The position numbers were made by a program, and so were the translations under genes. Shown one piece after another: positions 1-11,718 of a DNA stretch of 64,000 nucleotides (position 1 is the stretch's first letter; every line of letters begins with the position of its first letter). Source of the DNA: [Clostridium] clostridioforme AGR2157 (GTDB lineage: Bacteria; Bacillota; Clostridia; Lachnospirales; Lachnospiraceae); the NCBI RefSeq assembly GCF_000424325.1, contig NZ_KE384163.1, forward strand, positions 1 through 64,000. Reading direction: 5' to 3'. The notes beneath the pieces were generated by a model. It saw only the letters and a program-made list of their open reading frames with translations, was not told where the DNA came from and did not search any database.

Positions 1-247
1 CTTTACTGTCTTCCATGGCAGCTTTCACGCCTGATTCCATATATTTTTTCAGGCAGAGCTTTACCGTCGGTCTCGAAATATCGAGTTTGTCAGCAATGGC
101 TTCATCTGCCATGCCATCTGATTTTAATAAGAGGATTTTGGCTCTCCTGTGGACTCTGGCTTCAACAGTCCCCTTCTGTAGAATGGACTTTAAATATGAC
201 TTATCATCATTGGAAAGAAAAATAGGCGTAGCACTCTTTGGCATCAT
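1..247 (-). mobile_element. IS630-type transposase, N-terminal part, cut by the window edge
   Basis: On the minus strand an ATG at 247 (or 244) follows an AGGAGG site and reads 82 codons to the window edge. The visible part is a helix-turn-helix segment of the kind that opens IS630-family transposases: a charged stretch with RVHRRAKILLLKSDG, then a DEAIADKLDISRPTV recognition-helix region. The DDE catalytic domain would lie outside the window. In IS630 elements this domain binds the element ends and the enzyme inserts at TA dinucleotides. The element abuts the truncated gene at 311, so the insertion probably cut that gene. The family call rests on the N-terminal pattern only; another HTH-bearing transposase remains possible. 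Confidence 0.75.
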
Positions 248-253
248 TTTACC

Positions 254-290
254 TCCTGAAATGGTCTATAAGTATTATACCATTTCAGGA
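254..290. repeat. 12-bp inverted repeat at the start of the IS
   Basis: TCCTGAAATGGT at 254-265 is repeated inverted at 279-290, with 13 bases between. One arm overlaps the -10 region and the other lies just before the ribosome site of the transposase. It could be a transposase or repressor binding site or an RNA hairpin limiting translation. The true outer terminal repeat cannot be defined without the other end of the element. Confidence 0.6.
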
Positions 291-302
291 TAATAATGTA
301 AA
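274..302 (-). promoter_or_regulatory. Promoter of the IS630-type transposase
   Basis: Read on the minus strand, TTTACA (302-297) and TATAAT (279-274) are separated by exactly 17 bases, a near-consensus sigma-A promoter. It lies about 30 bases upstream of the transposase ATG and points away from the truncated gene. Confidence 0.65.
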
Positions 303-310
303 CTTATTAA

Positions 311-2398
311 AATCGAGTTATACTAGATAAATTTCGCAAACTGTCAAAGTATAGTGACGAGGAGACAGAAGAAAGAAGTGAAGATTATCAATACACATCT
401 ATTTGTCAGATATTTAACGATTATAATGGAAAAAAGTGCAGGCGGTTAGCAGATATTGAGGACAGGAAAGTCAGCCGGTTCATTAAAATTGAGGAGGAAC
501 CGCCTTATTTCAGCAATCGTGACAAATTACCATTGCTTGATGGGCCTGATACAGAGGAATTTATTGGAATATGGAACTGGAATGTCATTCCCAATTATAA
601 GGATTCCAATAGAGATTATGTAAATAAAATGCAGTATAATAGTAATATGAATTACATAGAGGTTGTGGAACTTACAGAATGCCATAACTGTGAGGAACTT
701 TTAGATTTTCTCATTGGTCATGATTTCTCCTGCATATCAGGAAGCAAAGTGCTTTTTGTGTACCATACGACAGAAAATGAGATGAATGGTTTGCTGTGTG
801 GAACTAGTGAACTGGAATTTTGTGATGGGTTTGCCCGGTTGAAGAAAAACGTGTACATATTGCCGCAGTACACCATTGATATTGGTGATGTATTAGAGAT
901 TGCTGGAAAGAAAATTTACAGATACCTTAATCTGGGTATGCCTCAAAGCATTTTTCAAGTAAAGAGTCCGCTGGAAGTTGTAAAGGAGATCGTGGTAAGA
1001 CGTGCTACAAGTGCAAAATTGCGTCAAAGCGGTCTTAGTATAAAAGAAACTCAGCATTGCCAGGCTTTTTTGAAAGAACTGCCAGAAAAGACGATATATC
1101 AGGAAATTGTTGACGCATATGAATGCACGGAGAAAGAAGCTGAGGAATATTTATCCTCCTTTATTAAACAGGCAGATTCCTATTTGTCAGAAGACGACAT
1201 TGATATGGAAACGTTAGGAGCTGCGGTGGAGAGAAATACGGAGCTTGTGAGGAGATGTAAAGAATTGCTTTCGGAAGACTGGCAAAAGGAGAATTCCCAA
1301 CAACTTCTCATGGCGCAAGACGAACTGGAAAAGGTACAGAGAGCAGTCAAAGAGGAAAGAGATAATTATACTACATATAAGGAGCAGCACAGCAAGGTGC
1401 AGAAGGAACTGAAAGAGCTCCAGGCAGAGATTTCAAAACAGGAAAAACTGGCTCAGGATGTACAAGAGAAAATTGCAGCCCGAATTGCTTTAGCAAGAAA
1501 AGATGCGGCGGACTTTATATCTGAAATGGCATTTGCCATGCCAATTGATATTAAAAGTAAAGGTGTGCTGTCAGAAGAAAGTTCCATATCGGTTACCTAT
1601 AGAAAAAAGAAGTATCATTTGGGCACTGAAATAACGGATATGGATTCTTTTGAGGAGGAATTGACAGAGAACCTAATTTTGTCAGGTTATGATGAGAGAG
1701 TTGCGCTTCAGATGGCGCAGATAATTGTATTTGCTATTTGTAATAATATGCCTATTGTATGTGGTGAACACGCAGAAAGGATAGCAGATTGTATTTCCTC
1801 CATGTTTGGGTGCGATGGGACTTGTATGCTCTCTTTGCCCATAGGCGAGCCTCGCTGCAAAGAAATCTGTGATTTTATCGGGCAGGAGATAAAAGCTGTC
1901 AATAGAGTGTTTATCGTCAATGGCATTTTTGAGGGATTTAGCTTGAACGCTTTTCATGAGATAAGGCAACGTTCAGAAGAATGGGGGAATAAGGCGATTC
2001 TTATTTTCCCGTTGAATGGTAATACAGAAATGATTTCAAGCCATGTATGGAACCAAACTATGTTTATTGACGGAGATATCGGAATTACAGATTTTGAGAC
2101 GGACACTTTAAATGCTTTTTATTCCTCAGTTGATTTTGTTTTAGAATACGATGCAGAAGTTTTTCGAAAAAAGCGTAAGCTGTTAAAACAGTTTTATGGA
2201 ATGATTGATAACATGGCAGTATTAAATTATGCAAAATATCTGGCTGTGACAGATGGAACAATGGAAGCGGATGAAATGATATTCATTCAGATTTTGCTGA
2301 GTGCGAAATCTTCCGAGAAAAAGGAGGATTTCTTAGAAAAGCTTTCAACAATTGGATTGGATGTAAAGTCCAACAGATATATTGCAAAATACCTGTGA
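311..2398 (+). CDS. 5'-truncated gene A of the helicase locus: coiled-coil protein with possible AAA-like C-terminal domain
   Basis: The frame is open from 311, directly after a TAA at 308-310, to the TGA at 2396-2398 (695 codons). There is no credible start: no in-frame ATG precedes about position 629 and the TTG at 533 lacks a clear ribosome site. The coding frame therefore runs back into the IS630 junction and the real N-terminus is lost. Visible parts: an N-terminal globular region, an acidic helical stretch, a long coiled coil (about 1280-1505, rich in E, K and Q), then a C-terminal alpha/beta domain. In that domain IVCGEHAERIADC sits where a P-loop would be expected but has no GK(S/T), and FIVNGIFEGF resembles a Walker B strand. 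I do not recognise the family. It is translationally coupled to gene B (stop 2398, ATG 2409), so it is probably a partner of the helicase. Whether any product is still made is unclear. Confidence 0.7.
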   Translation, partial: NRVILDKFRKLSKYSDEETEERSEDYQYTSICQIFNDYNGKKCRRLADIEDRKVSRFIKIEEEPPYFSNRDKLPLLDGPDTEEFIGIWNWNVIPNYKDSNRDYVNKMQYNSNMNYIEVVELTECHNCEELLDFLIGHDFSCISGSKVLFVYHTTENEMNGLLCGTSELEFCDGFARLKKNVYILPQYTIDIGDVLEIAGKKIYRYLNLGMPQSIFQVKSPLEVVKEIVVRRATSAKLRQSGLSIKETQHCQAFLKELPEKTIYQEIVDAYECTEKEAEEYLSSFIKQADSYLSEDDIDMETLGAAVERNTELVRRCKELLSEDWQKENSQQLLMAQDELEKVQRAVKEERDNYTTYKEQHSKVQKELKELQAEISKQEKLAQDVQEKIAARIALARKDAADFISEMAFAMPIDIKSKGVLSEESSISVTYRKKKYHLGTEITDMDSFEEELTENLILSGYDERVALQMAQIIVFAICNNMPIVCGEHAERIADCISSMFGCDGTCMLSLPIGEPRCKEICDFIGQEIKAVNRVFIVNGIFEGFSLNAFHEIRQRSEEWGNKAILIFPLNGNTEMISSHVWNQTMFIDGDIGITDFETDTLNAFYSSVDFVLEYDAEVFRKKRKLLKQFYGMIDNMAVLNYAKYLAVTDGTMEADEMIFIQILLSAKSSEKKEDFLEKLSTIGLDVKSNRYIAKYL

Positions 2399-2408
2399 GG
2401 TACGGCGG

Positions 2409-3437
2409 ATGGAAGACAGAATCCTATATGCCATGGCTACTGACTTAGGGATTGATAGATATGGAAATGAATCAGAAATGCAATTTTGCAGCAGAGTTTT
2501 GTATTCAGCGATGGCCAGTTGGGTAAAAGCCTCTGCATTGGATCAGCCGGTCACCAGTGTACAGGAGAATGTGCAAGGGGTGAGTAGAAGGCATATTTTT
2601 GATAAATGTACTGCTATCCTTAATGAAATGTTGAAAAGACATCCAGAATCTAGACCGTGGTTTGAAACGGAATCAGAAGTAGACAGCCCCATTACTGTGT
2701 TGCTGGGCAGACTGATAAGACATGGAGATTTGCTGCAGGTTGGATTTGGGACAAACCTGATTCTTGCAGGAAGCAGCCAAATGCCGCTATCAGGTAAAGT
2801 GGGGTGCAGAAAAGGGGAGATACTTTCGCAGGATACATATTATTCAGGTATAGCAATGCTTCAGAAAACACAAGAAAGCACAATATACAAACCTGAGCCA
2901 GTTACAGATGTAACAGGATGGTTTTGGGACTTTGTACGCTCTGCCTGGTGGAAAACTGCGGGTATGGATAAGAATGTTCAATATTTTAATGCATATAGGA
3001 AGTCAAAAAATAATCATTCCTGTTGGCAGTCAGAACGGCCAAAATCAGTGGAAGGAATATCGTTTGCCCGCCGTAATATCTGTCAAAACAGATATGAGTA
3101 TTATCTTCTGCGCCAGGGTGAATATTTGTATGAACATCGAGTGGATCCGTTCTTACAAGAAGTTTACGAACATAGACGGTTTATGATGGCAATGAGGCAC
3201 ATGGCAGGGAATGATGTGCCAGTACAGATGTATCACTATGCAGACCATGTTTCGGTGAAATTGAGGATTCATTTGCCGCAAAAGGAAAGCTCCCTGTTGG
3301 AAACATACGCATGGCCCCACAATTCTATTATGGATAAGCTGGAATGGGATATGGGTGAACTGGTGTGGAAATTTGTAAAGCCGCACTTATATGGATTAGG
3401 GATAAAACTGATAGAAGAAAGGACAGGACATGGATAA
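2409..3437 (+). CDS. Gene B of the helicase locus, unknown function (342 aa)
   Basis: I chose ATG 2409 (MEDRILYAMATDLG), preceded by GAGGT at 2397-2401; an upstream TTG at 2382 would overlap gene A by 17 bases. The stop overlaps the helicase start (3430) by 8 bases, so the three genes form one tight operon. The protein is soluble, rich in aromatic residues and arginine, with no signal peptide, membrane segment or nucleotide-binding motif that I can see. It has an N-terminal helical part (to about residue 110), a middle segment with LLGRLIRHGDLLQVGFGTNL, and a tryptophan-rich second half. I do not recognise a family. Fixed position before a DUF1998 helicase suggests a dedicated partner or specificity subunit, which is inference. 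Confidence 0.75.
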   Translation: MEDRILYAMATDLGIDRYGNESEMQFCSRVLYSAMASWVKASALDQPVTSVQENVQGVSRRHIFDKCTAILNEMLKRHPESRPWFETESEVDSPITVLLGRLIRHGDLLQVGFGTNLILAGSSQMPLSGKVGCRKGEILSQDTYYSGIAMLQKTQESTIYKPEPVTDVTGWFWDFVRSAWWKTAGMDKNVQYFNAYRKSKNNHSCWQSERPKSVEGISFARRNICQNRYEYYLLRQGEYLYEHRVDPFLQEVYEHRRFMMAMRHMAGNDVPVQMYHYADHVSVKLRIHLPQKESSLLETYAWPHNSIMDKLEWDMGELVWKFVKPHLYGLGIKLIEERTGHG

Positions 3438-6400
3438 GTATGGAGTAAGGAACACTTATGATGCGATCAGAAACCGGCTGCTGGATTATATCAATACCGA
3501 ATATCTTGGTAAAAATGACGCATTACGTGTTGCTTGTGAAAAAGAGCTGCAAAAAGCGGGGATGGTGTTTCAAGAACCTTATATAGAGGCCAATCCCGCT
3601 TACCTGGAAGCGGAAGGGGGAATTAACGGCGCAGCGTTGGAGATGGCTGTCAAAAGAATTCTTCTAAAAATGGCAGAGTTGGATTTAGGCGTGTTTAGGA
3701 ACCCATACAAACACCAGATCGAAGCCCTGGAGGCATTTTATCAAGGACAAGACCTTTTTGTCGCTACGGGTACAGGTTCCGGGAAAACAGAATGTTTTAT
3801 GTGGCCGATGGTGAGTAAACTGGTTCTGGAGCAGATGCGTTCTCCCAGAACATGGGAGATTCGTGGGGTGCGGGCAATCATGCTGTATCCAATGAATGCG
3901 TTGGTTTCTGATCAATTGGGAAGACTTCGTTGTATGATCGGCAATGGTGAAAACGGTTTTCATAGCTTAATCAATGAAATGGCTCCAGGACGCCGGGTAG
4001 TGCAGTTTGGGATGTATACCGGTCGCACACCGTATTCAGGTAGAGCTGACAGAAATCAAAACTTAAATTTGGCGAATACGATGGAGAAAGATATTCTTAA
4101 GCAGTCAGAAGAAACTAAGAAAAAGCTTCGTGAACTTGGAAAATATCCATCTAAAAAAAATTTGGGAGCGTTTGTGGAACGCTTGAGGAAACAGGAGGAT
4201 TGCCTGACAGATCCAGAAGATGCGGAGTTAATAACCCGTCATGAAATGCATCAGTATTGTCCCGACATATTGATTACAAATTATTCTATGTTGGAATACA
4301 TGTTGATGCGTCCGATTGAAAAGGAGATTTGGAATAGGACGAAGGAGTGGATTGACAGCGCTCCAGGAAACAGATTATTGTTTATTATGGATGAAGCCCA
4401 TATGTATCGAGGCTCGTCTGGAGGAGAGGTTGCTCTTTTAGTGCGTAGATTATTGCATAAGCTGGGTATTAAGCGCAGTCAGGTACAATTTATTCTTACC
4501 AGTGCCAGCGTTCCATCGGAAAAAGAAAAGGAGAGAGAAGTATACAAATTTGCTAGTGATTTAAGCGCCCAGCAAAAAAACAGAAATACATTTGTATTGA
4601 TCAAAGGAACAGCGGAGAAACTTCCGGTAAGTGGTAGAGAGTTTGACCCGATTGTTCTGATGGATTACGATTTGGACGCACTGCAGCAGGACTGGAATGG
4701 GCGCTATCCAGCAATTATGGATTTTGCCAGACGGGTAAACTTTCCTGTATACAATGGTTCTGAGGATGAAACAAATGTCGAAACGTGGCTGTATGATTGT
4801 TTGCGCTTGTGTAATCCACTGCTGCGGATTATAAAACAGACCCGGGGGCATGCAGTCAGCTTTAAGAAATTAGTGAAAATTGCGTTCCCAAAAAGTGAAT
4901 CCCCTGCTGCGGAAAAGGCAACCAGCGTATTGCTTGCAATCGCTCCATTTGCAAAAAATACTGAGGGGAAGGTTCTGTATCCTGCCAGACTGCATATGAT
5001 GTTTCGGGGATTGCAGGGGATTTATGCCTGTTCCAATCCATCCTGCACACAAAAAAATTATGAGGATGCAGGGCTTGGATTAGGTCGTGTCTATCTGCGA
5101 AAACCAGGAGCACGCTGCAAATGCGGAGGCATGATATATGAACTGTTGAATGAGCGATCTTGCGGTGCATTGTTTCTGCGTGGCTATATGGATGTATCTG
5201 AACATGAAAATCCTTTTGTCTGGAATGAACCGGGTATCCAGTTTACGGATAACTTGAAAGAAGTTCTTTTTTATCCGATTCTTCAGGATGGCAACTTTAA
5301 AAGAAGTAAAGGAAGCAGAAAGATTCAAACCGCATATCTGAATGCGATGACAGGATACCTGGACAGATTTTCCGAGGAGCCTGGCGGGAAGAAAAACTGT
5401 ATTCAAGTAGCATACTGTGATGTGGAAGTTAAGGGCAGGCCGAATTTATGGACTTTTAGTACTTGTCCCAAATGCGACAAAATGCGCTTTGAGGCAACTG
5501 ATTTTGTTACCAAAGGAAATGAACCGTTTTTCAATCTGGTATCGGAGCAATTCTATGTACAGCCACCTATTTCTCGATATAAGAATGAGGCCAATGGTGG
5601 ACGAAAAGTTTTGCTGTTTTCAGACAGCAGACAGCGTGCTGCTGTTCTGGCAAGGGACTTGACCCGTGCGGCAGATGAATGGGCTATGAAAAAAGCGCTG
5701 ACAGTTGCAGCAAATGAACTCCAGGAGTGGGCGGCACGGAACCATAAAATTCCAACATTGAACATTTTGTATGCTGTTTTTCTGAAAGTTGCCTATCAAA
5801 ATGGACTTCAGTTTTTTTATGGAAATAATGAAAAGGAATTGTTGGAAGATTTAAAGAAGATGGAGGAGTTATATGAGAAAAAGCAGGACAAGATAAAATA
5901 CAATATTGTCATTAATAAATACTTTAAACATAAACCAAGTCAGTACTATGAACATTTGTTGCGACAGTTGTGCAGCAGCTTTCGGTCTTTGACGGATGCA
6001 GGATTATGTTGGATGGAGCCTTGTGACATTGACGAGGAAACCTTTGACGAAATAGAAGAGGAGCTGGAGGAAGCAGAAATTGAGATGTCATTAGATGAGT
6101 TCAAGGTGCTGTTTTCCGCATGGGCAATGGAAATCATGACTTCACAGTATGCGGTCGGTTCTGAAATTGATGATGACGTGCGAAGAAATATTACTGCATA
6201 TCCCCGGCTGGGAGTCGGGAATGGAAACGAATTGCCGCCCAGAATCAGGAAGATGCTGGAAGCTCAGGGATTTACAAAGGCTCAGATTGAAATTGTGGTC
6301 AGGCAGTTATGCAAGTTTCTTGCCAAAGGCAATCATACATCCTCTATGTATCTCAATTTGGATATGATTATGTTACGCTTTGGTGAAAACCATGAATGGT

Positions 6401-8706
6401 ATAAATGCCCCAGATGCAGTGGCGTGTTTCCTTTCGTATTGTGGGGAAAATGTGTACACTGTGGGAAAGGGATTTCCAGAAAGATGACTCAGGAGGACTT
6501 TGATGGCATCAAATTCTGGCGGGCACCTGTTCTGGGGGCGGTTCATGGTAATCCGCAGGTATATATGACGCGTATTAACACAGAAGAACATACCGCACAG
6601 CTTTCCCATAAGGATCAACGGCAAAAAACCTGGTCAACTACGGAAGATTTTGAAATGAGATTTCAAAATGTTCATGTAAACAATGATCGTCCGGTAGATA
6701 TATTGAGCTGTACTACGACTATGGAAGTAGGCATTGATATTGGATCGCTGACGGCGGTTGGTTTGAGAAATATTCCACCTATGCGGGAAAATTACCAGCA
6801 GCGTGCCGGGCGTGCAGGTCGGAAAAGCGCAGCAATATCCACAATTGTCACATATACAGACAACAGGCCTCATGACAGTTATTACTTTCATAATCCTGAA
6901 AAAATCATTTCCGGTGTTCCCAGAACGCCATGGATTGATGTTGACAATAAAAAATTAGCATATCGACATATGAATGTAATTTGTGCTACAGAGTTTTTTG
7001 ACAGGATGGGATCAGGGGCGGACGAAGTCAGGATTTGTGATTTTTTCCGGACTGATTTTAAAAACTTTGAAGAGTTTATCTATGGGAAAGAGGAACAGGA
7101 TTTTGAACTGGAAACACTTATTCCAGAGGGGATTAACTTCAACATTGCGGAATATAAAAAAGAAATTTTGGATCAACTGGAAGAATTAAGAAAAAGTACG
7201 GAAGAATTTCCGGAGGAATACCAGGATGATGATAACCAGGAAAAGCGCGTGCTGGATACTTTTTTGGAAAGGGGGATTTTTCCAACATATTCTTTTCCTA
7301 AAGATGTTGTAGGTTTTTATGTGGAAAATGAAAAGGGATCATCCATTGAACAAAAGCCGGAACGCGCTTTGGACATGGCAATTAGTGAATACGCACCTGG
7401 GCGGTTAGTGGTGATTAATAAGGTTACTTATAAATCAGGCGGTATTTACAGCTTTCATTCAAAATTTCGTGCGGATGAGCAGGAACACCCTGCCAGACCT
7501 TTCTTTGAAAGCAAAAGTAAGGAATATTTTAAAGACCTATATTATTGCGGAGATTCCGCCTGCAGTTGGATGGGACTGAAATACGAAAGCCAATGCCCGT
7601 TTTGTGGAAAAGCAACCATTCGGAGTCAAAAGATGCTAAAGCCGTGGGGATTTGCACCTGTCAACGGAACAAGTGCCAAGGAAGCAGGGGCTGAAGCAGA
7701 AATGACTTATGCAGAGGAACCTTGTTATTCTATTACACCAAAAGAAAGCGAGATGGAGACGGTAATCGGTTTTAGCAACCTGCGCTATTCAAAGAGAGCG
7801 AATGATCCGTTGATTATCTTGAATAAGGGACCGAAATCTACAGGTTTTATGGTCTGCAAAGATTGCGGGGCTGCGATTCCCGGGGATGACGAAGCGCTGC
7901 TTCGGAAGATATATAAACCATATCGCCATCCGTATACAAATTATAGCTGTCATCATGGGGCAGGAAGCGTTGTAAACACTTATCTGGGCAATCAGTTTAG
8001 GACAGACATGGTAGTGTATGAGATTACCCTTGATGCAAAACGGATAAATGTAAATCCTGGCGGGCTTTGGATACGAAGAGCCGGTCAGACTTTGGCAGAG
8101 GCGATGACTTTGGCAGGCGGGCGCCTGCTGGATATTGAATTCAATGAAATCAAAAGTGGATATCGGTTGCGTTATTCCGAAGATGGTTTTAAAGCGTATG
8201 TAGATGTCTTTTTGTTTGATAGCCTTTCTAGTGGAGCAGGGTATTGTTCTGCATTGGCGGAAAAAACACAGGAGCTGATGGGGGAAACAAAAAAGGTCCT
8301 GATAAGCTGTCATGCTGGGTGTGACAGTGCCTGCCATGAATGTCTGATGCATTACTGGAATCAACGTGTTCATGGCTTGTTAGACCGTTTTGCAGCGCTA
8401 GAACTGTTGGAATGGTGCGAGAATTTCAGTCTTCCGTCAGAATTGCCTTATGATCAACAGGAAGAATTGCTGGAACCATTAAACGCTATGGGAGCGGAAT
8501 ATAAAATAGTTGGGGATGGGATACAGCATTTTGTTGAGATGCGAAATAAAAGGCGCAGGATTGCTGCATATCCGGCGATGTGGTGTGAAAGCAGTTCTTT
8601 GTTGCCAGCAGGGACAATCACTCTTGCGGATAAACTTTTGAAGTATGCTTTACCGAAAGCTGATGAACTGATTCGTAATGAATGGAAAAGATGTTTTAAT
8701 GATTGA
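3430..8706 (+). CDS. Giant DEAH-box helicase with DUF1998 C-terminus (DruE/DISARM-like defence helicase)
   Basis: This 1758-residue protein has a split SF2 helicase core. Lobe 1 carries Walker A ATGTGSGKTE (about residue 114), DEAHMYRG (about 321) and LTSASVPS. Lobe 2 carries VLLFSDSRQRAAV (about 730), CTTTMEVGIDIG (about 1095) and QQRAGRAGRKS (motif VI, about 1125). Between motifs and after lobe 2 are several zinc-ribbon-like cysteine pairs: CSNPSC...CKC, CPKC, CPRC...CVHC, CPFC and CKDC. The C-terminus has the DUF1998 cysteine cluster CHAGCDSACHEC. Known relatives are DruE of Druantia (typically about 1,800-2,100 residues), DISARM helicase subunits and shorter MrfA-type repair helicases; size favours the DruE type. 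The predicted role is ATP-driven translocation or unwinding of DNA in phage defence, with genes A and B as partners. Missing are the Druantia and DISARM partners I could recognise (methylases, PLD nuclease, DruA). Family is confident; system membership is inference. Confidence 0.88.
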   Translation: MDKYGVRNTYDAIRNRLLDYINTEYLGKNDALRVACEKELQKAGMVFQEPYIEANPAYLEAEGGINGAALEMAVKRILLKMAELDLGVFRNPYKHQIEALEAFYQGQDLFVATGTGSGKTECFMWPMVSKLVLEQMRSPRTWEIRGVRAIMLYPMNALVSDQLGRLRCMIGNGENGFHSLINEMAPGRRVVQFGMYTGRTPYSGRADRNQNLNLANTMEKDILKQSEETKKKLRELGKYPSKKNLGAFVERLRKQEDCLTDPEDAELITRHEMHQYCPDILITNYSMLEYMLMRPIEKEIWNRTKEWIDSAPGNRLLFIMDEAHMYRGSSGGEVALLVRRLLHKLGIKRSQVQFILTSASVPSEKEKEREVYKFASDLSAQQKNRNTFVLIKGTAEKLPVSGREFDPIVLMDYDLDALQQDWNGRYPAIMDFARRVNFPVYNGSEDETNVETWLYDCLRLCNPLLRIIKQTRGHAVSFKKLVKIAFPKSESPAAEKATSVLLAIAPFAKNTEGKVLYPARLHMMFRGLQGIYACSNPSCTQKNYEDAGLGLGRVYLRKPGARCKCGGMIYELLNERSCGALFLRGYMDVSEHENPFVWNEPGIQFTDNLKEVLFYPILQDGNFKRSKGSRKIQTAYLNAMTGYLDRFSEEPGGKKNCIQVAYCDVEVKGRPNLWTFSTCPKCDKMRFEATDFVTKGNEPFFNLVSEQFYVQPPISRYKNEANGGRKVLLFSDSRQRAAVLARDLTRAADEWAMKKALTVAANELQEWAARNHKIPTLNILYAVFLKVAYQNGLQFFYGNNEKELLEDLKKMEELYEKKQDKIKYNIVINKYFKHKPSQYYEHLLRQLCSSFRSLTDAGLCWMEPCDIDEETFDEIEEELEEAEIEMSLDEFKVLFSAWAMEIMTSQYAVGSEIDDDVRRNITAYPRLGVGNGNELPPRIRKMLEAQGFTKAQIEIVVRQLCKFLAKGNHTSSMYLNLDMIMLRFGENHEWYKCPRCSGVFPFVLWGKCVHCGKGISRKMTQEDFDGIKFWRAPVLGAVHGNPQVYMTRINTEEHTAQLSHKDQRQKTWSTTEDFEMRFQNVHVNNDRPVDILSCTTTMEVGIDIGSLTAVGLRNIPPMRENYQQRAGRAGRKSAAISTIVTYTDNRPHDSYYFHNPEKIISGVPRTPWIDVDNKKLAYRHMNVICATEFFDRMGSGADEVRICDFFRTDFKNFEEFIYGKEEQDFELETLIPEGINFNIAEYKKEILDQLEELRKSTEEFPEEYQDDDNQEKRVLDTFLERGIFPTYSFPKDVVGFYVENEKGSSIEQKPERALDMAISEYAPGRLVVINKVTYKSGGIYSFHSKFRADEQEHPARPFFESKSKEYFKDLYYCGDSACSWMGLKYESQCPFCGKATIRSQKMLKPWGFAPVNGTSAKEAGAEAEMTYAEEPCYSITPKESEMETVIGFSNLRYSKRANDPLIILNKGPKSTGFMVCKDCGAAIPGDDEALLRKIYKPYRHPYTNYSCHHGAGSVVNTYLGNQFRTDMVVYEITLDAKRINVNPGGLWIRRAGQTLAEAMTLAGGRLLDIEFNEIKSGYRLRYSEDGFKAYVDVFLFDSLSSGAGYCSALAEKTQELMGETKKVLISCHAGCDSACHECLMHYWNQRVHGLLDRFAALELLEWCENFSLPSELPYDQQEELLEPLNAMGAEYKIVGDGIQHFVEMRNKRRRIAAYPAMWCESSSLLPAGTITLADKLLKYALPKADELIRNEWKRCFND

Positions 8707-9095
8707 TTCACGCTTTCCACATTAAAAATGGGGCTTGTGCCTTGCTGCGAGCTTTGTTTTTGCAGCAAGGTTTAGCATACCAAATGGTTTGGGAAGTTTG
8801 AGTAAAATAGATAGGATATATTTTAATAAAAGATAGAGTCCGATTCCCTGCAGCTTGATGTCATTTCAGTGAATCAACTTTAGTAAATGGTGCGAATTAT
8901 ATCGAAGAACGGATGGTACATAAAAGAGTCAGGAGATGTGCTGGACAGATGTGAAAAACTATTTTTTAAGGAGCGATTGATCTGTTATCTGACGGGGATA
9001 TGTAACAGAGAGTGAGTTCATTCACCTGAGATATGAAACTTAAAATTCCTTGATTTTTTAAGGAGAATCACTTGACAATATAGGGAGGTTTAGTT
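8707..9095. other. Non-coding gap between helicase and rhuM-like gene
   Basis: Apart from the hairpin at 8740-8770, this 389-base AT-rich stretch has no open frame with a plausible start and no RNA gene that I recognise. It ends in AGGGAGGT at 9082-9089, the ribosome site of the next gene. Confidence 0.6.
8740..8770 (+). terminator. Hairpin after the helicase gene, possible terminator
   Basis: CCTTGCTGC (8740-8748) pairs perfectly with GCAGCAAGG (8762-8770) across a 13-base loop, 34 bases after the helicase stop. The following bases are only TTTAGCA, so termination would be weak. The hairpin closes the three-gene run. Confidence 0.45.
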
Positions 9096-10115
9096 TTGGA
9101 AAACTTTTCAAAAGAGATGGAAATGATTTTATACCACTCCGACGATGGCGATGTATCAGTTAATGCGTATATAAAAGATGAGACACTTTGGATAACGCAG
9201 AAGGCAATGGCGGAGTTGTTTGGTGTTCAGGTTCCCGCAATCAGTAAGCATCTTAAGAATATTTTTCATGATGGTGAGCTTGAGGAGAGAGTGGTTGTTT
9301 CCAAAATGGAAATAACCACTCCACATGGTGCGATTGATGGAAAAACGCAGACAATGGAAGCAAAATTTTATAATTTAGATGCCATAATATCCGTTGGCTA
9401 TAGAGTGAATTCAAAAAAAGCAACTCATTTTAGAATTTGGGCAACAAAAATTCTGAAAGAATATATGCAAAAAGGGTTTGTGTTGGATGATGATAGGCTT
9501 AAGCAGGGAAAGGCTGCATTTGGGAAAGATTACTTCAGAGAATTACTTGAAAGAGTTCGTTCTATTCGAGCAAGTGAACGTCGGATATGGCAACAAATAA
9601 CTGACATATTTGCCGAATGCAGTATTGATTATACGAAGGATTCTGAGATCGCATATCATTTTTATGCGACTATACAGAATTGTTTCCACTATGCAATAAC
9701 GAGTTGCACAGCAGCTGAAATTGTATATAATAAAGCAGATCATACGAAAGAGCATATGGGACTTACAACATGGAAGAATGCACCAGATGGGCGAATTCTT
9801 AAGTCTGATGTATCAATTGCTAAAAATTATTTAACCGAAAAGGAAATACGACAGTTAGAGAGGGCTGTTACCGGATATTTTGATTATATCGAAGATTTAA
9901 TAGAACGTGAAAATGTGTTTACTATGGAAGAATTTGAGCAAAGTGTAAATGCCTTCCTAGAGTTTCGACAGTTTAAAATTCTTAAAGATAACGGTAAAAT
10001 ATCGCATAAACAAGCATTGGAAAAAGCGTATAGCGAGTATGATGTTTTTAATAGAATACAACCGATTGAATCAGATTTTGATAAAACTGTGAAGCGGATG
10101 ATGAAAGATTTTTGA
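9096..10115 (+). CDS. RhuM-family protein
   Basis: The gene starts with TTG at 9096, 6 bases after AGGGAGGT. The 339-residue protein has the RhuM pattern: an N-terminal beta segment, WITQKAMAELFGV with an HTH-like helix, SKHLKNIF.DGEL, NLDAIISVGYRVNS and RIWATKILKEYMQKGF. A helical C-terminus carries the conserved ERRIWQQITDIF and TFMEEFE-like segments. RhuM proteins (COG3943, named for a Salmonella pathogenicity-island gene) are cytoplasmic and of uncertain function. They are commonly found beside restriction and other defence genes on mobile segments. Here it follows the helicase locus by 390 bases on the same strand and shares its AT-rich composition, but it is not coupled to it. It may be an independent member of the island. 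Confidence 0.88.
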   Translation: MENFSKEMEMILYHSDDGDVSVNAYIKDETLWITQKAMAELFGVQVPAISKHLKNIFHDGELEERVVVSKMEITTPHGAIDGKTQTMEAKFYNLDAIISVGYRVNSKKATHFRIWATKILKEYMQKGFVLDDDRLKQGKAAFGKDYFRELLERVRSIRASERRIWQQITDIFAECSIDYTKDSEIAYHFYATIQNCFHYAITSCTAAEIVYNKADHTKEHMGLTTWKNAPDGRILKSDVSIAKNYLTEKEIRQLERAVTGYFDYIEDLIERENVFTMEEFEQSVNAFLEFRQFKILKDNGKISHKQALEKAYSEYDVFNRIQPIESDFDKTVKRMMKDF

Positions 10116-10279: not shown

Positions 10280-10329
10280 GAGGGATACTGTAATTATTAC
10301 ATCCTGTCACAGGAAGGAGAGTGCATGAA

Positions 10330-11352
10330 ATGGGACAGATGAAAGGCAAGGCAAGTATTGAATTTGAACATCCCCCGGTCATCATAAGCGCTGGCTCCGT
10401 CGTTGGGAAAAAAGAGGGCGAAGGTCCTCTGGGAAGCCTGTTCGACGAGGTGGAACTGGACGATATGTTTGGTATGGATAATTGGGAACAGGCGGAGAGC
10501 ACCATGCAGAAGAAAACCGCGGACCTGGTCATTGAAAAGGGCGGCATACGAAAGGGTGACCTGCGCTATCTGTTTGCGGGCGATCTGCTGGGGCAGCTCA
10601 TAGCCACATCCTTTGGTACCGTGGATTTGGAGATCCCTCTTTTTGGGCTTTACGGGGCCTGCTCCACCATGGGGGAGGCATTGGGATTGGGAGCAATGGC
10701 AGTCAACGCAGGGTATGCGGACCAGGTCATGTCCATGGCGTCCAGCCATTTTGCCACGGCAGAAAAGCAGTTTCGTTTTCCCCTGGCCTATGGGAACCAG
10801 AGGCCGCCCTCTGCCACATGGACTGTCACGGGCTGCGGCGCCGTGGTTCTGGCAGGAAACCGGAAGGATGGGATGGCCCGCATCGCAGGCATCACAACCG
10901 GACGCATGGTAGACATGGGCGCCAAGGATTCCATGAATATGGGAGCTGCCATGGCCCCGGCAGCGTTCCATACCATTGAACAGAACCTGGAGGATTTCCA
11001 GGTCAATGAGACCTGGTATGATAAAATCATCACCGGGGACCTGGGAGAGGTGGGAAGGACCATCCTGCTGGAGTTTATGAAGAATAAAGGAAGGGACTTA
11101 AGCCGGCTTCACATGGACTGTGGCATGGAGATATACGATAAGGAACAGCAGGACACCCATGCAGGTGGAAGCGGATGCGGCTGTTCCGCCGTTACCCTGT
11201 GCTCCTACATCCTCCCCAAGGTACAGGATGGCACCTGGAAGCGGGTTTTATTTGTCCCTACCGGGGCGCTGCTGTCCTCGGTCAGCTTCAATGAAGGACA
11301 GAGCATACCGGGCATTGCCCACGCAGTCGTCATTGAACATATCGACAGTTAA
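10330..11352 (+). CDS. spoVAD: Stage V sporulation protein AD
   Basis: SpoVAD is part of the SpoVA channel that moves dipicolinic acid into the forespore and out during germination. It has a thiolase-like fold and sits on the outer face of the inner spore membrane. The 340-residue product matches the family's usual length (about 338). Recognisable segments are PPVIISAGSVVGKKEGEGPL, LYGACSTMGEAL (position of the thiolase-like cysteine), SHFATAEKQFRFP and FVPTGALLS. I prefer ATG 10330, because GTG 10321 lies directly against the AAGGAGA ribosome site. It is followed at 12 bases by spoVAE. Unusually, spoVAC, which normally precedes it, is absent; accessory genes lie upstream instead. Confidence 0.95.
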   Translation: MGQMKGKASIEFEHPPVIISAGSVVGKKEGEGPLGSLFDEVELDDMFGMDNWEQAESTMQKKTADLVIEKGGIRKGDLRYLFAGDLLGQLIATSFGTVDLEIPLFGLYGACSTMGEALGLGAMAVNAGYADQVMSMASSHFATAEKQFRFPLAYGNQRPPSATWTVTGCGAVVLAGNRKDGMARIAGITTGRMVDMGAKDSMNMGAAMAPAAFHTIEQNLEDFQVNETWYDKIITGDLGEVGRTILLEFMKNKGRDLSRLHMDCGMEIYDKEQQDTHAGGSGCGCSAVTLCSYILPKVQDGTWKRVLFVPTGALLSSVSFNEGQSIPGIAHAVVIEHIDS

Positions 11353-11364
11353 GGAGGAAATGAT

Positions 11365-11718
11365 ATGGACTATTTAAAAGCATTTATCGTGGGAGGAATC
11401 ATCTGTGCCCTGGTCCAGATTCTGCTGGAAAAGACAAAGATGATGCCGGGGCGGGTCATGGTCACCCTGGTGGTCAGCGGCGCCATACTGGGAGCCATAG
11501 GGCTCTATGAGCCCTTTGCGAAATGGGCAGGGGCAGGGGCCACGGTGCCTCTTCTGGGCTTTGGAAACACTCTCTGGAAGGGCGTAAAGGAGGGAATCGG
11601 AGAGGACGGGCTACTGGGCATCTTTAAGGGCGGACTCACGGCCAGTTCCGCGGGAATATGCGGCGCCCTGGTATTCGGCTATCTGGCGTCCCTTGTGTTC
11701 AAGCCGAAGATGAAGTGA
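11365..11718 (+). CDS. spoVAE: Stage V sporulation protein AE (AEB type)
   Basis: This 117-residue integral membrane protein has about four hydrophobic helices and ends FKPKMK. It matches the short SpoVAE/SpoVAEB family, which with SpoVAC forms the membrane part of the dipicolinate channel. Typical segments are GGIICALVQILLEKTKM, TPGRVMV-like MMPGRVMVTLVVSG, and GLYEPFAKWAGAGATVPL. A GGAGG ribosome site precedes ATG 11365, and the gene follows spoVAD by 12 bases, so the two are cotranscribed. Forespore (sigma G or F) control is expected from the family but I could not identify a convincing promoter. Confidence 0.93.
   Translation: MDYLKAFIVGGIICALVQILLEKTKMMPGRVMVTLVVSGAILGAIGLYEPFAKWAGAGATVPLLGFGNTLWKGVKEGIGEDGLLGIFKGGLTASSAGICGALVFGYLASLVFKPKMK

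Follow-up and report, generated by a model that had tools for sequence, protein, structure and literature searches.

Druantia systems have a DruE-family helicase as their common core, found in types I, II, III and IV. In type I, the helicase gene follows druB, druC and druD, and DruA (DUF4338, PF14236) belongs to the definition of the type. Type II requires DruM and DruG (PMC8565338). The DruE of type III, a two-gene DruH-DruE system, carries PLD nuclease domains (PMC13192584). DISARM also has a YprA-family helicase module, in a DrmA-DrmB-DrmC arrangement with a methylase. Here we compare with these systems a locus at the left end of a 64,000-nucleotide stretch from [Clostridium] clostridioforme AGR2157 (the window; G000:C1:1-64000, position 1 being the contig end). 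An initial annotation had described it as a three-gene DUF1998-helicase locus with two unrecognized partners (genes A and B), possibly a new Druantia/DISARM-related type. Very probably, the locus is what is left, on the right-hand side, of an operon druB-druC-druD-druE that represents a DruA-less form of Druantia I; it lies in an island between spoVAC and spoVAD and is broken in this genome.

Relationship of the three genes to Druantia type I

The third gene (gene C, 3430..8706, + strand) is druE. The DruE-like, 1758-residue DEAH/DUF1998 helicase of the initial annotation is confirmed by the open frame, by Pfam (DEAD, Helicase_C and MZB domains, with DEAH and motif VI present) and by PADLOC. 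Residues 1-1751 align with positions 2-1773 of the PADLOC model DruE1 (PDLC00013) at 1859 bits. In comparison, the best scores of the other DruE models are 631 bits (DruE2), 582 bits (DruE4) and 527 bits (DruE3). The protein is similar to the DruE of canonical Druantia I along its whole length, with 34% identity.

Gene B (2409..3437, + strand), directly 5' of druE, is a druD-like gene. It gives nothing usable with Pfam or NCBIfam and matches PADLOC DruD1 (PDLC00008) at 5e-19. NCBIfam returns no Dru model even for annotated E. coli Dru proteins, and its silence therefore carries no meaning. The gene ending at 3437 encodes 342 residues from ATG 2409, or 351 from TTG 2382. As relatives start at the equivalent of ATG 2409, genes A and B probably have a 10-base gap between them and not the apparent overlap. 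Of the coupling by overlaps proposed earlier, the 8-base overlap of genes B and C stands.

Gene A (open frame 311-2398, earliest start codon TTG 533) gives by itself only coiled-coil-type matches of 0.004 or worse with Pfam, NCBIfam and PADLOC, and no PADLOC DruC is listed for it. An intact relative, locus L022 (RAYB01000021.1, 'Bacterium 1XD21-70'), is 86-91% alike and has the order druB-druC-druD-druE, with a DruB-like protein of 532 residues and a DruC-like protein of 964 residues. Gene A is collinear with approximately residues 274-964 of this DruC-like protein (87-88% identity). It is not an independent gene; an insertion sequence (IS) has cut a druC-like gene, and gene A is what remains of the 3' side of that gene (323..2398, + strand; C-terminal ~690 residues). 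The intact form matches PADLOC DruC1 weakly, at 7e-6.

Profiles of the window lineage (11 DruB, 11 DruC, 11 DruD and 14 DruE sequences, with L022 representing window genes A and B) were compared with HHalign to those of three canonical systems. These are E. coli ARS-C301 (NZ_CP132983.1, druA-E annotated), Pseudomonas putida pKF715A, and locus L096 from genome G718, which belongs to the phylum of the window and has a DruE1 score even higher than that of the window DruE. The same-protein pairs give 5e-17 (B-B), 1.4e-7 (C-C, probability 94%), 3e-13 (D-D) and 8e-290 (E-E), and the 12 off-diagonal control pairs give 0.037 or worse. Each of the four sets pairs with its canonical Druantia I counterpart and with nothing else. 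With this pairing, the DruD1 match and the weak DruC1 match, the two partners are no longer unrecognized. They are known components, although DruC and DruD rather than the DruH or DruM that the initial annotation had in mind.

The locus therefore has four homologous genes in the same B-C-D-E order as type I (druB, 5' of druC, lies on another contig, C26; see below), and DruE is alike throughout. The differences are the lack of DruA, the strong divergence of DruB and DruC, and restriction-modification genes in some relatives. DruC has 964 residues in L022 and 1030 in L019, both close relatives of the window locus, compared to 611-627 in the three canonical systems. As the other four parts of type I are present and DruA is not, we name the locus a DruA-less variant rather than a plain member of the type.

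The other Druantia types have the DruE family in common with the locus. However, the PADLOC results for genes A and B include neither DruH of type III nor any of DruF, DruG, DruL and DruM (a cytosine methylase) of types II and IV, and the Pfam scan finds no PLD family in gene C.

With Foldseek, the structure model of gene A finds matches over only a small part of its length (template modeling score of 0.16 or less by query length), and an AAA-like match is confined to residues 417-599. Compared with Protein Data Bank sequences, the DruC profile finds mostly coiled-coil proteins, and the DruB and DruD profiles find nothing convincing. The DruD structure model (4 alignment rows; predicted local distance difference test, pLDDT, 42.5) is useless.

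A DruA-less lineage and its neighbors

Strong DruE1 matches are uncommon. They were found in 11 of 392 genomes of the family sample at E 1e-150, and in 17 of 398 genomes of the phylum sample at 1e-100, the latter mostly distant. A quick tree was built from 39 DruE sequences (the partial L102 left out; rooted for drawing only, with long branches outside the window's clade). In it, the window DruE belongs to a branch of 25, with a Shimodaira-Hasegawa-like approximate likelihood ratio (SH-aLRT) support of 100 by the quick method. It groups with L022, L020, L103, L118, L062 and L132, and L096 is placed with the E. coli and P. putida sequences. The B-C-D-E order is found on one strand in 24 of the 25 branch loci (the window being counted together with C26), a conserved neighborhood. 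The remaining locus, L038, is a 6.5-kb contig on which only druE is seen. In L062, L067 and L136, D or C is split over two frames. A contig search with a single DruD found one locus, a plasmid tblastn search with intact DruC found none, and viral-contig scans with three other DruE queries found no new relative.

Two of the DruA-less cassettes are on viral-classed contigs, in L118 (1-22624) beside putative phage replication genes and in L103 (15860-18683) followed by a phage-type integrase. These are possible prophage cargo. L066 (650-16535) has a complete B-C-D-E set and after it, in the same orientation, another B-C pair that has diverged, beyond which the contig ends.

None of the 25 branch loci has a DruA match in its fetched stretch. 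Outside the branch, DruA is present in the stretch of 10 of 14 loci (L071, L072, L073, L074, L076, L096, L100, L104, L105 and L107) and has no match in that of the other four (L068, L077, L108, and L106, which begins at druE). Four of the DruA-bearing plasmid or viral loci (L073, L104, L105 and L107) have a single gene of ~950-1000 residues in the place of druB and druC.

Whole-genome searches with PF14236 agree with this picture. The family was not found in the genome of the window, nor in any of 14 further genomes with DruE matches, 11 of which are in the window's DruE branch (two of these, G249 and G257, are only 76-77% complete). With another branch genome, G743, DruA is absent from 13 of 13 branch genomes searched whole. 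As a positive control, the same search finds DruA in all six plasmids with Druantia-like loci. A six-genome search that included G743 found it in two genomes. In G718, the DruE of which clusters with canonical type I, it is ~1.4 kb beyond druE, and in G478 it is not on the contig of the distant DruE. The search on 14 standard genomes gave no match. By tblastn, restricted to the fetched stretches, no DruA was found in nine further same-family genomes or on the viral contigs L103 and L118; L130, L131, L133, L135 and L137 have little or nothing upstream of druB on the contig.

A methyltransferase or restriction gene adjoins the cassette on the same strand in 14 of the 25 branch loci. In eight loci this is a D12 adenine methyltransferase directly 3' of druE (identified by BLAST to the L059 enzyme in L129-L131 and by Pfam in the others), with gaps of 3-19 bases in L059, L060, L097, L129, L130, L131 and L137; the eighth, in L136, is a fragment. 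These eight loci form one branch, with support of 86, or 100 with the addition of L064, which has no such enzyme. In four loci, a C5 methyltransferase and a type II nuclease are located directly 5' of druB, the nuclease being of the Eco47II family in L062 and L103 and of the EcoO109I family in L118 and L132. Genes downstream of the cassette encode a nuclease of the NgoPII family and a D12 enzyme in L020, and an enzyme of the Eco57I family in L061. Moreover, L059 and L129 have an upstream open reading frame (ORF) of 91 residues, 48% like part of the L062 methyltransferase. In the other 11 loci, including the window and L022, no such gene is present among the genes examined, and several of these contigs end close by. 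The neighbors may reflect clustering in islands only. A literature search, with most subscription papers out of reach, found no text on the DruA-less form or on its restriction neighbors, and the candidate restriction link of this lineage appears to be novel. In L063 (4-2602), genes for a SIR2-domain protein and a HerA-type ATPase, like the SIR2-HerA defense pair, lie directly 3' of druE.

These observations bear on whether the lineage is a separate new Druantia/DISARM-like type, distinct from type I and working together with restriction-modification genes. The absence of DruA, the single well-supported branch and the 14 loci with methyltransferase or restriction neighbors speak for a new type. 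However, each of the four proteins has its one counterpart in canonical DruB-E, and the PADLOC models DruB1 (363 bits) and DruD1 (518 bits) fit locus L059 over their whole length, so PADLOC probably files members of the lineage under type I already. The window and ten other loci have no such neighbor among the genes examined, and DruE loci with no DruA match exist outside the branch too. We consider a new type improbable. The kinship to Druantia in the initial annotation holds, and its novelty is reduced to that of a variant, a lineage without DruA in which relatives, though not the window, have restriction-modification neighbors.

Disruption of the operon

The window begins inside an IS at the contig end, and as a result the whole locus could not be seen there. 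The right end of the element occupies 1..322 on the - strand, with the 5' part of the transposase at 2-247 (-), and we take it to be of the IS630 family from the look of its protein sequence. Positions 1-311 have 11 matches in the genome (self included), five of them whole-length; each of the 11 lies no more than 40 bases from a contig end.

The missing half of the operon was found on contig C26 by searching the genome of the window with L022 DNA. The order on C26 is spoVAC, a stretch of ORFs (judged by eye, a putative tyrosine recombinase and IS91-type ORFs), the C-terminal part of a serine recombinase, druB, the 5' part of druC and the other IS end. The C26 and window IS ends have the same terminal inverted repeat. 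On C26 the homology to L022 runs as far as L022:7937, and it is taken up again from L022:7942 at window position 326. The common repeat and this break in homology indicate that druC is interrupted. The three-gene locus described earlier consists of real ORFs but is incomplete.

There is a second lesion, in druB, which is in two frames on C26 (386 and 147 residues). With druC split and druB frame-shifted, the system is most likely inactive in this genome, although druD and druE are still open. The ratios of nonsynonymous to synonymous substitutions (dN/dS) relative to L022 are 0.19 for the first frame of druB, 0.29 and 0.14 for the 5' and 3' parts of druC, 0.24 for druD and 0.13 for druE, which indicates that the decay is recent.

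Could the 3' part of druC, with druD and druE, be a working reduced three-gene system? The intact state of druD and druE, their closeness to L022 and their dN/dS are in its favor. But the druC part is ~270 residues short and has no native start or promoter, druB is damaged as well, and no relative with these three genes only was found among the 25 loci. This makes a reduced system very unlikely.

A reading of gene C as a housekeeping repair enzyme of the MrfA/YprA kind, or as the helicase of a DISARM system, has a negligible probability. Its MZB domain and distant matches to MrfA and DrmA are set against 44 bits for DrmA, over the helicase core only (among the 25 of 35 PADLOC hits shown) and compared to 1859 bits for DruE1, ~100 bits for the MrfA chain (6znp) with the DruE profile, and PADLOC results for genes A and B that contain no DrmB, DrmC or other DISARM partner. 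A Dpd reading of gene C was rejected for the same confinement to the core, and ARMADA was considered from its published description only. The proposed DISARM relationship reduces to general YprA-helicase kinship, together with the methylases associated with relatives of the locus; Pfam scans of genes A, B, C and the RhuM gene find no methylase.

Several points weigh against the assignment to a broken, DruA-less Druantia I. DruA, a defining part of the type, is absent. The links of DruB and DruC to canonical Druantia I are distant, with PADLOC matches weak or absent: L022 DruB matches DruB1 at only 0.004, and PADLOC reports no Dru family for the DruC and DruB of genome G335. The DruC structure model has a mean pLDDT of 56.7, with block means of 61-82 across residues 441-590. 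The joining of C26 to C1 through a multicopy IS was deduced, not sequenced, and the druB frame change rests on one assembly and could be an assembly error. Finally, we know of no phage test of any DruA-less member.

The spoVA island and a possible mechanism

The island lies between spoVAC (C26, L027:5894-6388) and spoVAD (10321..11352, + strand), splitting the spoVA sporulation operon. Its right border is formed by spoVAD and the SpoVAC/SpoVAEB-family gene after it (11365..11718, + strand); both window genes were identified by a Pfam PF07451/PF03862 scan of the flank. As noted initially, the DNA is AT-rich (G+C of 39-43% over 1-10000, compared to 44-57% across the remaining window) and contains, besides the IS, a RhuM-family gene (9096..10115, + strand; Pfam PF13310, 3.7e-102; PADLOC candidate family PDC-S05). 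Family scans of genes A, B, C and RhuM found no DruA either, in agreement with the earlier statement that neither a methylase nor DruA is nearby. No RhuM counterpart is seen among the L022 ORFs beside druE; in its place, directly 3' of druE, is a YhcG-type PD-(D/E)XK nuclease gene.

Among three relatives with 99% identical SpoVAD, the gap between spoVAC and spoVAD is ~0.1 kb in G1113 and ~1.1 kb in G1106, and in G1116 another gene is in this position. The fetched relatives do not bear out the gap as a genus-wide defense hotspot. L170 and L171 have a putative transporter-like ORF next to spoVAC.

The cassette is beside spoVAC in both L022 and the window genome, and druE is far closer to that of L022 (dS 0.33) than is spoVAC (dS 0.94), which points to horizontal transfer. 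Remnants of a serine recombinase lie by spoVAC in both genomes (L022:3998-5209 and L027:5894-9839). The shared position would reflect repeated or transferred insertion at one site, perhaps by the recombinase whose remnant lies there.

The intact relatives most likely encode a DNA-processing antiphage machine. DruE would be its motor, powered by ATP and loading onto the DNA of invading genomes at exposed ends or where it is single-stranded; engagement of DNA ends is suggested by analogy with DruE of Druantia III. DruC would serve as a coiled-coil scaffold, and its AAA+-like C-terminal domain has a P-loop without the usual lysine. DruB has a CoiA-like, zinc-binding N-terminus. It is possible, though rather doubtful, that restriction-modification genes replaced DruA in this lineage. 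The methyltransferase would then mark self, restriction cuts or unmethylated sites would supply DNA ends, and DruB-E, as a second-stage machine, would load onto these ends, either destroying the invader or blocking it, which would amount to a restriction-triggered Druantia.

A three-gene locus that seemed unknown thus becomes readable, and its gene content is corrected, gene A being a fragment. A DruA-less branch of Druantia I exists in the order and phylum of the window. Canonical and DruA-less systems have the other four proteins in common, which makes the role of DruA, and of whatever stands in for it, testable. Should the association with methyltransferase and restriction genes prove functional, Druantia would be connected to self/non-self marking of the kind found in DISARM or BREX.
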